A stretch of DNA of 64,000 nt from Microbulbifer hydrolyticus. GTDB lineage: Bacteria; Pseudomonadota; Gammaproteobacteria; Pseudomonadales; Cellvibrionaceae. Location: contig NZ_CP047491.1 of assembly GCF_009931115.1 (NCBI RefSeq), positions 1,625,501 to 1,689,500 of the forward strand, in the 5' to 3' direction. Below the pieces are notes generated by a model. It searched no databases and was not told the origin of the DNA. It saw only the letters and a program-made list of their open reading frames with translations. Of this stretch, positions 19,457 through 36,334 are shown piece after piece (within the stretch, counting starts at the first letter, position 1; each line of letters starts with the position of its first letter). The translations under genes were made by a program, and so were the position numbers.

Positions 19457-22387
19457 ATGCAAACCCAGGTAGTTGATAAGTCGAGTGGCGTCCTGAGTTC
19501 GTTTGATTCCACCAATGTGGTTTTGAACTCGCCAGGCTTCGTCAAACTTGCCCTAGCGCAAGAAGACATAGTGTCTTTTTCCAGGGCCGGAGATGATCTG
19601 ATTATTCAGCTGGAAAACGGCGAAGTAGTCACGATCGAAAACTTTTACTTAGCGGATTCCGCCAGCGCACAGAGTGATCTTTTTATCGAAGATCCGGAGT
19701 CGGGTGCAGTATTACTCGCTCAGAAGGGTGCGGATGGCTCCATTTTTTCTATGGCGCAAGTCAGCAGTAGTGCCGACGTTGCAGGCGTAATTCCCCCCAC
19801 GGGTGAGTATGTCTGTCCGTGGGTATGGGCCGGGCTGGCAGCGCTGGGGATTGTGGGCATCGCGGCGTCCCTGGACGATGATGATCCCAGATCTCCGAGA
19901 TTTGAGCCGTATGAGCCTCCTGCGGAACCGCCAGAGCCGCCCGGGGGAGGTGAAGAACCGCCCGGAGGTAAACCACCGCCCGGAGGTGAAGAGCCACCGG
20001 ATGGTGATGCGGATGCGGACTCTGACGCGGACGCCGATGCAGACACCGATGCTGACGCGGACGCCGACGCGGATACGGATGCCGACGCGGATACGGATGC
20101 CGACGCGGACGCCGATGCGGATACGGATGCCGACGCGGATGCCGACGCGGATGCCGATGCGGATACGGACGCCGACGCAGACGCCGATGCGGATACGGAT
20201 GCCGACGCAGATGCCGATGCGGATACGGATGCCGACGCAGACGCCGATGCGGATACGGATGCCGACGCAGACGCCGATGCGGATACCGACGCAGACGCGG
20301 ACGCCGATGCGGATACGGATGCAGACGCGGACGCCGATGCGGACACGGATGCCGACGCAGACGCCGATGCGGATGCCGATGCGGACGCCGATGCGGATAC
20401 CGACGCGGATGCCGATGCGGATGCCGACGCAGATGCGGATGCCGATGCGGATGCCGATGCGGATGCCGATGCGGATGCGGATGCCGATGCCGATGCGGAT
20501 GCCGATGCGGATGCTGACGCGGATGCCGATGCCGATGCCGATGCCGACGCGGATGCCGACGCAGATGCCGATGCGGATGCCGACGCCGATGCGGATGCCG
20601 ATGCGGATGCCGACGCGGATGCCGATGCCGATGCCGATGCGGATGCCGACGCAGATGCCGATGCCGACGCCGACGCCGACGCCGATGCGGATGCCGACGC
20701 CGATGCGGATGCCGATGCGGATGCCGATGCCGACGCTGACGCCGATGCGGATGCCGACTGCGATATCAATATCGATATCGACATTGATATTGACATCGAC
20801 TGTGAGTGTGACGCCGATGCTGATTCAGACGCAGACGCAGACGCAGACGCAGACGCAGACGCAGACGCAGACGCAGACGCAGACGCGGATTCGGATGCCG
20901 ACTACAACTTCAGCTACGAGCTTGATCTCCACGGATATGACGTGGACATTGATATCGATGTTGATATTGATAAAACGGGCAGTCACAAAGATGGTGATTG
21001 TGAAATAGATATTGATATCGACATAGATATCGACATCGAGTGTGATGCCGACGCAGACTCGGATGCGGATGCGGATGCGGATGCGGATGCGGATGCGGAT
21101 GCGGATGCGGATGCGGATGCGGATGCGGATGCGGATGCGGATGCGGATGCGGATGCGGATGCGGATGCTGACGCCGATGCCGATGCCGATGCCGATGCTG
21201 ATGCCGATGCCGATGCCGATGCTGACGCCGATGCCGATGCCGATGCCGATGCTGATGCCGATGCCGATGCCGATGCGGATGCGGATGCTGACGCCGATGC
21301 CGACGCTGACTGTGACGCCGACGCCGACGCCGACGCCGACGCCGACGCCGACGCCGATGCCGATGCCGATGCCGACGCGGACGCCGATGCGGATGCAGAT
21401 GCGGATACGGATGCTGACGCAGACGCCGATGCGGATACGGATGCCGACGCGGATGCTGACGCAGATACGGATGCCGACGCGGATGCTGACGCAGATACGG
21501 ATGCTGACGCGGACGCGGACGCTGACGCTGACGCGGATGCTGACGCAGATACGGATGCTGACGCGGATGCTGATGCAGATACGGATGCTGACGCCGATGC
21601 CGATGCCGATGCTGACGCAGATACGGATGCCGATGCTGACGCTGATGCCGATGCCGACTCAGACTCGGATCGAGACTTGCCGAATGGTATCTCTTACGTC
21701 GCCTTCAGGCTGGAAGATGGGCAGATCATCAAGGTCGAGTATGGAGACGAGGATGACATCAAGGATCCGAGTCAACCGCAAAGCCTGATCGACTGTATCG
21801 AAGAGGAATACGGCTCCGAAGTTGTCGAGTACATCATCAAGGCGGGTAACTCCCACTACGATGAAGAAGGCAACGTCACCACCACCGATGGCTGGCCAAC
21901 CAACCCGGCTGGCAATGTCGGAGGGCCCGGAGTCGAAACCGTCCAGCTGGATGAACTCTGTGACGACGATGAGATGATGCAGACGGAAAATGAATCATCG
22001 AATCTGATGTTCGCGGAGCTGGGTGCTGACTTGGATCAGCTCGGTGAAGCAGAAGGTCTTGATCAACATGAGCTCCAGGCAGTCAAAGAGGCCATCCAGG
22101 CCCAGCTGGAAGAGGCTCTGGGCGATGTGATCAGTCTGGGTGATGTCTTCGCGGACAATGACTCGGATTCACCACAGCTGGAGGCCAGTGAACAGCCGCC
22201 GACGCTTGAGGATCTTCTGCTAGACGTCGTCGACGAACTCACGTTGCCGGGATTCGGCTCCAGTATCTCTCTTACAGAGGGCCTGGGAGGCGCTGTAGAC
22301 CTTGGCGAACCGTGTGACACATTACCTCAGGATATGGATGACCCGATGAGGGACCTCTGGTCTCAAAACGGTAACCACGATCTCTAG
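19457..22387 (+). CDS. BapA-prefix secreted protein with about 550 residues of Asp-Ala repeats
   Basis: A 976-residue extremely acidic protein. Residues 1-115 match the BapA/LapF-type prefix domain ([50 protein letters not shown]), followed by the hydrophobic [20 protein letters not shown] at about 118-137. Such prefixes mark large adhesins exported by type I systems. A Pro/Gly/Glu linker occupies about 150-183. Residues 185-735 are almost pure (Asp-Ala)n with Thr or Ser spaced in places, broken by two Ile-Asp blocks flanked by Cys. The last 240 residues are an ordinary acidic domain with helical segments and presumably the export signal. No RTX GGxGxDxxx repeats or Ig-like domains are seen. 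It has its own terminator and lies upstream of the secretion genes that probably export it. Confidence 0.85.
20005..21660 (+). repeat. Coding Asp-Ala repeat: hexanucleotide and 30-bp repeats
   Basis: About 1.65 kb of in-frame GAY-GCN hexamers. Sub-blocks differ in codon choice: a near-perfect 30-bp unit encoding ten residues with one Thr repeats at about 20160-20400; a pure GCAGAC run lies at about 20830-20885; a pure GCGGAT run at about 21060-21170; Thr-containing units return at about 21400-21600. Homogeneous runs beside mixed ones point to repeated local expansion by slippage or unequal crossover. All units are multiples of three bases, so length changes keep the frame. Confidence 0.95.

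Positions 22388-36334: not shown

Follow-up and report, generated by a model that had tools for sequence, protein, structure and literature searches.

A candidate export-coupled modification system for Asp-Xaa repeat adhesins in Microbulbifer hydrolyticus and distant bacteria

Introduction

Biofilm formation by Paracoccus denitrificans needs BapA, a protein with 891 Asp-Ala repeats which migrates on gels above 300 kDa against a calculated 212 kDa, modification not being excluded by the authors (PMC5588039, excerpt; this word marks sources available in part). The excerpt of a 2025 paper on the same protein does not mention a modifying ligase (PMC13235738). Ser-Asp and Ala-Asp proteins have been noted among the Acinetobacter beta-BAPs, in an account whose available part discusses no modifying enzymes (PMC4647330, excerpt), and staphylococcal SdrI carries Ser-Asp/Ala-Asp repeats (PMC4850167). 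In staphylococci, SdgA and SdgB put sugar on the Ser of Ser-Asp repeat proteins (PMC3794999; PMC8561734, excerpts). This report concerns a gene cluster at positions 19457-36334 of a 64,000-nucleotide stretch of Microbulbifer hydrolyticus DNA (contig NZ_CP047491.1, positions 1,625,501 to 1,689,500; the whole stretch is called the window), in which an Asp-Ala repeat protein and its exporter are encoded together with ligases and other enzymes.

The cluster is proposed, with a probability of about 0.6, to be a dedicated, export-coupled modification system for an adhesin with Asp-Xaa repeats (Xaa being the residue interleaved with Asp). A more specific proposal, to which we give even odds, is that amidoligases of the Mur and ATP-grasp types load the Asp side chains with amino acids or peptides before export, producing a ribosomal counterpart of cyanophycin, within a wider family defined by a toroid domain that works with an amidoligase where Xaa is Ala and with an O-glycosyltransferase where it is Ser. 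Cyanophycin, which serves as the chemical model, consists of poly-Asp whose side chains carry amides; both Mur ligases and ATP-grasp enzymes first turn carboxylates into acyl phosphates and then couple these to amines.

Like Paracoccus BapA/BapBCD, the window encodes a type I secretion system (T1SS) substrate with a BapA_N prefix and a very long Asp-Ala tract beside a three-gene exporter; unlike in the available part of that account, it also has toroid, Mur, ATP-grasp and oxygenase partners (PMC5588039, excerpt). The likeness to SdgA/SdgB lies in dedicated enzymes encoded near their own repeat adhesins, the repeat residue being the target of SdgA/SdgB (PMC3794999, excerpt), and the difference in the use, by Asp-Ala systems, of a Mur/ATP-grasp ligase on repeats that lack a hydroxyl. 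Ser fills only 6 of 248 interleaved slots in the window tract, which is thus no Ser-Asp substrate of the SdgA/SdgB kind, and the toroid is absent from the excerpts of the SdgA/SdgB descriptions (PMC3794999; PMC8561734). The cluster's ligase ATPg has the G-type ATP-grasp fold of the cyanophycin synthetases CphA1/CphA2 but scores far below the CphA cut-off; the backbone here, unlike theirs, is ribosomal and the Mur ligase is a separate, MurF-like domain. A PGA_cap (CapA) domain is shared with the poly-gamma-glutamate systems CapBCA/PgsBCA, and the ligase domain of the window's fusion protein matches MurF models best.

The Gene Cluster of the Window

The cluster sits in a 4.21-Mb single-contig genome. 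Seven plus-strand genes (19457-31384) are followed by a convergent fusion gene:

19457..22387, plus strand: BapA_N-type T1SS substrate with Asp-Ala tract, 976 aa (PF22783, E 1.9e-21; NF033677, 59.7 bits, cut-off 35)
20000..21661, plus strand: Asp-Xaa tract, residues 182-735 of this protein, mostly Asp-Ala with short Cys/Ile islands
22549..24009, plus strand: TolC-family outer-membrane channel (TIGR01844, above cut-off)
24071..26254, plus strand: LssB-type type I secretion ABC transporter (TIGR03375, 789.5 bits, cut-off 693.1)
26254..27534, plus strand: HlyD-type membrane fusion protein (TIGR01843, above cut-off)
27607..28557, plus strand: transglutaminase-like protein, TGL (PF01841, Transglut_core, E 6.2e-18)
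28527..30530, plus strand: ATPg, with a CphA-like ATP-grasp domain, a degenerate second ATP-grasp-like region and a C-terminal acylphosphatase
30608..31384, plus strand: 2OG-Fe(II) oxygenase, OXY (TIGR02466 / 2OG-FeII_Oxy_5)
31499..36334, minus strand: toroid-CapA-Mur fusion, 1611 aa, start taken as the first ATG
34655..36334, minus strand: toroid domain, fusion residues 1-560, an (alpha/alpha)-barrel with no Pfam/NCBIfam match above cut-off
33866..34603, minus strand: CapA (PGA_cap) domain (PF09587, E 2.7e-56)
31502..32785, minus strand: MurF-like ligase domain (PF08245, PF02875, Mur_ligase_M/C)

An earlier note on this DNA had named these genes and described an Asp-Ala centre of about 550 residues; each gene is in place according to the open reading frame list and Pfam/NCBIfam profile searches, and the Asp-Xaa tract measures 554 residues, most of them Asp-Ala. 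Missing from that account was the third, N-terminal domain of the fusion (about 560 residues), here called the toroid, which proved more informative than any other part. Matches above the Pfam cut-offs comprise Transglut_core, acylphosphatase, four ATP-grasp models, 2OG-FeII_Oxy_5, PGA_cap and Mur_ligase_M/C. With TIGR01143 the MurF-like domain reaches 214.8 bits, under the cut-off of 288.6; its P-loop reads GTAGKSS and its second motif WNATV. TGL shows motifs with Cys (DCTEYA), His (NHHAAE) and Asp (PVDANL) and an N-terminus that looks by eye like a signal peptide. Its sole Pfam match is Transglut_core, which sets it apart from the LapG-type periplasmic proteases, presumably a Pfam family of their own. 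In the list of reading frames, the end of TGL overlaps the start of ATPg by 31 bases.

Enzyme Type and Repeat Residue

One line of evidence for the proposal is a correspondence between the enzyme that accompanies the toroid and the residue interleaved with Asp. The list below covers the loci where the tract could be read and the enzyme identified; a Mur domain is called intact if it keeps the P-loop and a second motif (YNANP; WNATV in Microbulbifer, YNAAV in Pigmentiphaga, YNAEY in G1140).

Glycosyltransferase, Asp-Ser: Klebsiella, G220, G1090, G1123 (Ser 37, Ala 24), G1104, G1147, G1092
Glycosyltransferase, Asp-Ala: G1083
Intact Mur, Asp-Ala: Microbulbifer (entered once), Pigmentiphaga, Agrobacterium (entered once), Sulfitobacter, Nitratireductor, G160, G106, G1297, G1242, G1281, G1140, G1129, G1228, G1307 (an Ala plurality: Ala 338, Ser 282, Asn 212)
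Damaged Mur, Asp-Ser: G433 (P-loop GSGAGSST, YDANP), G1325 (GSASP in place of YNANP)
Damaged Mur, Ala-rich: G1320 (17-pair tract)

Intact Mur domains accompany Ala in 14 loci or lineages and Ser in none, whereas glycosyltransferases or damaged Mur domains accompany Ala in two and Ser in nine (exact p 2.7e-5, a descriptive value from related loci assembled by hand). Collapsing one genus gives p 6.7e-5, and without the split into intact and damaged the Ala/Ser counts are 15/2 for Mur against 1/7 for glycosyltransferases (p 5e-4). Left out of the comparison were two Microbulbifer genomes without a Mur domain (G020, Asp-Ser; G015, Asp-Ala), the Agrobacterium plasmid pAt (ATP-grasp only, Asp-Ala), the enzyme-less loci of G1135, G361, Rhizobium BG4, Enterococcus and Staphylococcus epidermidis, and all tract-less loci. 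The tract of G433 contains N; G1325 has a toroid-glycosyltransferase locus as well, and G1228 a second toroid-Mur locus with the motif YSANP. Sdg-like domains fused to the toroid occur in Klebsiella aerogenes and in genomes of family f33, the best NCBIfam match of the Klebsiella domain being SdgB/SdgA with 139 of 800 bits, far under the cut-offs. The window genome gave four partial matches of 24-27% to Sdg-type glycosyltransferases, all far from the locus, and no enzyme of that type.

This correspondence bears on a reading in which the ligases make a separate polymer or small molecule, such as a poly-amino-acid or a cyanophycin-like product, that acts with an unmodified adhesin at the surface. 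CapA and Mur domains are indeed part of capsule and peptidoglycan pathways, and the enzymes closest to ATPg, the cyanophycin synthetases, produce a free polymer. Yet the catalytic partner of the toroid varies with the repeat residue, a glycosyltransferase replacing the ligase in most Asp-Ser loci, a match that a free polymer leaves unexplained; moreover, no complete Mur domain was seen, in the loci read, with the toroid genes of the four Microbulbifer genomes that have a toroid and lack BapA. A separate product is thus considered unlikely.

The Asp-Xaa Tract

Asp makes up 32% and Ala 26% of the whole window protein, and its residues 183-738 include just two Lys and no Arg, which makes trypsin a poor choice for digesting the tract. 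Fifteen Asp-Ala proteins (from Microbulbifer, Pigmentiphaga, Agrobacterium, Nitratireductor and Sulfitobacter) together have 3,272 Asp slots, of which 3,247 hold Asp, and 3,299 interleaved slots, of which 243 hold a residue other than Ala (sums made by hand over slots picked by in-phase Asp flanks, which itself favors Asp; the Xaa lists give no more than eight kinds of residue). The window tract uses a mixture of the two Asp codons and of the four Ala codons. Because of this mixing and the near-constancy of the Asp slots relative to the interleaved ones, the tract is not a simple DNA repeat and is kept at the protein level.

Close to the tract start Thr often occupies each tenth residue, Cys/Ile islands similar to those of the window recur in many relatives, and the C-terminal ending of the protein is conserved among relatives. 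The regular Thr and the conserved Cys islands would suit enzymes that cross-link the tract by lactam or ester bonds, joining Asp to Thr/Ser or to the Cys islands as the ATP-grasp ligases of graspetides do, and one graspetide ligase, PsnB, does turn up at rank 30 of the ATPg fold matches, among the weaker ones. This is very improbable, since the best fold matches of ATPg are cyanophycin synthetases and a ligase still adjoins tracts that are nearly free of Thr and Ser, such as those of Agrobacterium (249 Ala and 1 Gly in the counted slots) and Sulfitobacter (157 Ala and 1 Gly).

The window tract is also open in other frames (19720-20796, minus strand; 19803-21008 and 21042-21788, plus strand), which read as Ser-Ala and Met/Thr/Pro-rich sequences, so that automatic annotation may call false genes there; in the Agrobacterium pAspH13-3a record a minus-strand gene call overlaps bapA. 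The BapA_N domain was tried as a marker of Asp-Ala tracts and discarded, as outside Microbulbifer it mostly occurs without one. For the 27 other BapA_N loci of a 398-genome phylum sample the printed Asp-Ala counts went no higher than 13, and the 2-3 kb read showed no tract; in a 295-genome family sample, where part of the 68 matching genomes was read, none of 26 loci had six pairs in a row. Paracoccus was not identified among the BapA_N loci sampled outside Microbulbifer.

Co-occurrence in Microbulbifer

The earlier note had asked whether these genes co-occur in other genomes, and in Microbulbifer congeners, Pigmentiphaga and an Agrobacterium plasmid they clearly do. The order BapA, TolC, ABC, HlyD, ATPg and then a convergent toroid-CapA-Mur gene is found in the window and in 11 of 36 congeners. 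All 12 of these ATPg-bearing clusters include the exporter and CapA-Mur, 11 include TGL and 10 OXY; the Asp-Ala tract could be read in 11, the twelfth (G026) ending at a contig edge. Full-length ATPg is encoded by 13 of the 36 congeners, in 11 of them within a window-like cluster; in the other two (G030 and G010) it is unlinked, and a BapA-exporter-TGL-CapA-Mur locus lies elsewhere in the genome. The same locus occurs without ATPg in G027 and G004.

Of 37 Microbulbifer genomes, 22 have BapA_N of the window type; a search of 21 other genomes of the order found it in none. The toroid, found in 26 of the 37, accompanies BapA in 22/22 genomes and occurs in 4/15 without it (p 1.6e-6, kinship ignored), and ATPg is present in 14 of the 22 genomes with BapA_N versus 0 of the 15 without. 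In the loci read, 19 of the 22 BapA genomes have a Mur domain, and all 18 of those with a readable tract are Asp-Ala. Among the BapA-less genomes, the Mur domain of G009 lacks its C-terminus and that of G003 has lost both P-loop and C-terminus; none was seen in the toroid stretches of G006 and G014, the contig of G006 ending 1 kb further on. A strict rule of "no Mur, no Asp-Ala" had to be dropped for this genus, as only G020 of the three Mur-less genomes is Asp-Ser; the tract of the third, G013, is unreadable past a contig end.

Some observations on the Mur-less genomes and on the site may be added. In the BapA of G015 (L155) four Asp slots near the tract start have changed to Val or His, as if the constraint on Asp were relaxed. 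The BapA of G013 runs into poly-Asp at the contig end, and a CapA, acylphosphatase and TupA-like ATP-grasp fusion (L141, 11728-14103, minus strand) lies between its toroid gene and exporter. The window cluster is flanked by an MFS transporter gene (17681-19090, plus strand) and an FMN-oxidoreductase-like gene (36594-38678, minus strand), both named by eye; such genes stand near the toroid gene in many congeners and mark a fixed site.

ATPg and OXY

In the loci fetched from BapA genomes, OXY occurs in 11 of 14 with ATPg and in 0 of 8 without (p 0.001), and TGL in 13 of 14 versus 2 of 8. ATPg and OXY are an optional linked pair of some Microbulbifer genomes, and TGL is optional too. The core sketched in the earlier note has to be redrawn accordingly: ATPg and OXY become accessory and TGL optional, and what stays constant is the pair of Asp-Xaa protein and toroid protein, usually accompanied by a Mur ligase. 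Its label of a "surface polymer" is given up in favor of the repeat region of a BapA-type protein.

The AlphaFold2 model of ATPg (pLDDT 89.4) finds cyanophycin synthetases as its best folds in the PDB (7wac, E 4.7e-25; 7ta5, E 9.1e-24), and its C-terminus matches the acylphosphatase fold. In between lies a region resembling a degenerate second ATP-grasp domain; its counterparts in Pigmentiphaga and Agrobacterium match ATP-grasp models. Compared with a cyanophycin synthetase, ATPg shares the G-type ATP-grasp domain and lacks the Mur-type M domain (no Mur domain in Pfam searches), and it scores 210 bits against an equivalog cut-off of 850. The ATP-grasp Lys, Glu and Asn ligands are kept in all 17 aligned ATPg sequences. 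Tandem ATPg genes occur in three genomes; two of the three downstream copies lack the acylphosphatase Arg, as does the unlinked copy of G030, and one further sequence lacks the acylphosphatase Asn.

A scan of contigs with ATPg gave at least 74 loci, and among the matches listed seven cover most of its length: five in Microbulbifer with the cluster (one of these, L034, was not seen in the congener set), the unlinked ATPg of M. variabilis, and Pigmentiphaga. The remaining 67 of those listed, fetched for distant ATP-grasp matches and used as controls (1.13 Mb; 3.6-20.9 kb each, unextended), contain no Asp-Xaa tract of at least 10 pairs. In a 369-genome class sample (at most three candidates scored per genome) all listed matches besides that of the window fall within ATPg model positions 14-346 of 662. 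Full-length ATPg was therefore rejected as the defining gene: those other matches cover the first ATP-grasp domain only, and ATPg is an accessory of a narrow group.

The Toroid Domain and Its Loci Beyond Microbulbifer

Searches of Pfam and NCBIfam with the toroid gave weak sub-threshold matches and none above cut-off. The window domain shares 36-81% identity with 15 relatives ranging from Microbulbifer to a staphylococcal plasmid. Its AlphaFold2 model (pLDDT 93.0, pTM 0.90) resembles in Foldseek the (alpha/alpha) barrels of GH76 (best E 1.3e-7) and cellobiose 2-epimerase, with a target TM of at most about 0.6 and some 10% identity, and no solved sequence relative was found below E 0.04. The near-invariant motifs EIKLGGN, YYDGEAA and HDHW could form an active site or a peptide-binding cavity.

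The toroid was detected in 14 of 398 genomes of the phylum-wide sample, in 11/119, 7/121 and 4/120 genomes of three families picked because each held one, and in 54 plasmid records. Among 35 toroid loci fetched from these genome samples outside Microbulbifer, 21 showed a tract, versus 0 of the 67 unextended controls; 19 were in the first stretch fetched (5/14 plus 14/21) and two, in G1092 and G1228 (about 13 kb from the toroid), appeared on extending it. Of 12 plasmid records opened, nine hold a tract:

Two Agrobacterium records and one Sulfitobacter record: toroid-Mur with Asp-Ala BapA
Agrobacterium pAt: toroid and ATP-grasp fusion with Asp-Ala BapA
Nitratireductor: separate toroid and Mur genes with an Asp-Ala protein
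Klebsiella aerogenes: fusion of the toroid with an Sdg-like glycosyltransferase, next to a BapA-like frame that has 911 Asp-Ser pairs
Rhizobium BG4: toroid and Asp-Ala tract, no enzyme detected
Enterococcus raffinosus: toroid and 18 pairs, mostly Asp-Ala, no enzyme detected
S. epidermidis: toroid and an LPXTG protein with mixed Asp-Ala/Asp-Ser repeats, no enzyme detected

In Pigmentiphaga a Mur-S11-CapA protein, a tandem ATP-grasp protein, a T1SS exporter and an Asp-Ala BapA are encoded together. Agrobacterium pAt carries BapA (about 250 Asp-Ala pairs) and its exporter followed by a 1660-aa protein in which the toroid is fused to a YheCD ATP-grasp domain and two CphA-like ones; it unites in one chain two separate genes of the window. 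In G361 the gene directly before the toroid gene (L296, 5786-8956, plus strand) encodes an autotransporter whose Asp-Gly tract lies between autochaperone and barrel, a third export route for such repeat proteins.

The diversity of these partners is relevant to the view that the tract is an unmodified, calcium-binding polyanion, with toroid, Mur and ATP-grasp proteins regulating or acting elsewhere, for instance on the C-terminus or the cell wall. The authors of the Paracoccus BapA study discuss calcium binding or mineral nucleation and, in the available part, name no modifying enzyme, and a ligase might act on the C-terminal ending, which is conserved in the Microbulbifer proteins; on the other hand, the same source leaves modification open for the slow gel migration of BapA (PMC5588039, excerpt), the integrity of the Mur motifs follows the repeat residue, and toroid genes also adjoin Asp-Xaa proteins with very different C-termini (the LPXTG protein and the autotransporter). 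An unmodified polyanion is accordingly regarded as quite unlikely.

Several toroid loci have further features. The Sulfitobacter toroid-Mur and BapA genes (L257, 10884-28298) lie between condensation-domain genes and a type I polyketide synthase. In G152 (L286, 485-11844, plus strand) toroid-CapA-Mur is followed by proteins of 1019 and 886 aa, each with at least two ATP-grasp matches; the contig starts just upstream, hiding any partner adhesin. The toroid is in frame with a YheCD-type ATP-grasp in L288 (9306-12116), L289 (9314-12205) and L293, from three genomes, with no Asp-Xaa tract in the fetched stretches. It stands alone in the staphylococcal plasmid record L261 (7803-9419; 538 aa, without Pfam/NCBIfam match), adjoining a YSIRK/LPDTG protein with Asp-Ala/Asp-Ser repeats for which no gene is listed. 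In this and other staphylococcal plasmid records such toroids are annotated as "poly(glycerol-phosphate) alpha-glucosyltransferase" or hypothetical.

Proposed Mechanism and Its Weighing

In the proposed scheme the toroid would recognize, present or process the repeat. Where Xaa is Ala the carboxylate is the only reactive side-chain group, which is why the Mur ligase is proposed to act on Asp: working in the cytoplasm, it would activate the side-chain carboxylates with ATP and join amino acids or short peptides to them. Where Xaa is Ser, which can take a sugar, the toroid is mostly joined to an Sdg-like glycosyltransferase. In some Microbulbifer, ATPg may elongate or alter the appendage while its acylphosphatase clears stray acyl phosphates, and OXY may hydroxylate Asp or the appended residue. 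Cytoplasmic modification would precede export by type I, Sec/sortase or type V routes; in the window the modified, extended tract would leave through the type I system to form a surface adhesin, which TGL might process or cross-link outside the inner membrane. The match of enzyme type to repeat residue strengthens the attachment of amino acids to Asp, which we infer; the step order, the nature of the attached group and the parts played by CapA, OXY and TGL are likewise put forward conditionally. One might speculate that the group is D-Ala or D-Ala-D-Ala, because the Mur domain is MurF-like and an S11-type domain is fused to Mur in Pigmentiphaga and G1140.

A number of points weigh against the scheme. 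The case is built on genes and predicted folds, from which a modified protein, a product and an activity are extrapolated. The class of damaged Mur domains was set after the two Asp-Ser exceptions had been seen, in a hand-made table of non-independent loci, and G1083 and G1320 run counter to the correspondence, which in family f33 alone amounts to 2/0 versus 1/7 (p 0.067). G015 is still Asp-Ala although the loci read there contain no Mur domain, its toroid-CapA protein included, a search of the Asp-Ser genome G020 gave no Sdg-like enzyme above background, and G1135 (Ala 165, Ser 40) and Rhizobium BG4 combine a toroid and Asp-Ala with neither enzyme in the stretch. No tract was in reach in 14 of the 35 toroid loci outside Microbulbifer, some cut by contig ends (four meet one within 4 kb), nor was any seen in the fetched stretch of three of the 12 plasmid records (two Variovorax, one Acinetobacter baumannii). 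Finally, the Mur domain is MurF-like, and no cyanophycin synthetase model of NCBIfam matches it.

Concluding Remarks

Amidoligases were reportedly surveyed by Iyer and co-workers in 2009. Literature keyword searches, covering the listed titles, the beginnings of abstracts and some excerpts, found no report of ligases acting on Asp-Ala repeats, no paper tying BapA, cyanophycin synthetase and type I secretion together, and none joining three of ATP-grasp, acylphosphatase, cyanophycin synthetase and amidoligase, though keywords cannot find a domain that has no name. Asp-Ala BapA adhesins, Ser-Asp glycosylation and the dedicated modification of repeat adhesins are known, and the present system would be categorically new only if amidation were shown.

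The recurrence of the ligase-adhesin pairing in distant bacteria points to an undescribed way to modify surface proteins. If the proposal is true, dipeptide-repeat adhesins would have a second chemistry, the amidation of Asp side chains by cell-wall-type ligases, and one unannotated domain family would mark such systems in Gram-negative and Gram-positive bacteria alike. It would account for the small deviation in Asp alternation through the tracts, offer a testable reason for the odd gel behavior of Paracoccus BapA, and provide genetically encoded relatives of cyanophycin that are defined in sequence and length. The enzyme-repeat correspondence predicts the outcome for each new locus.

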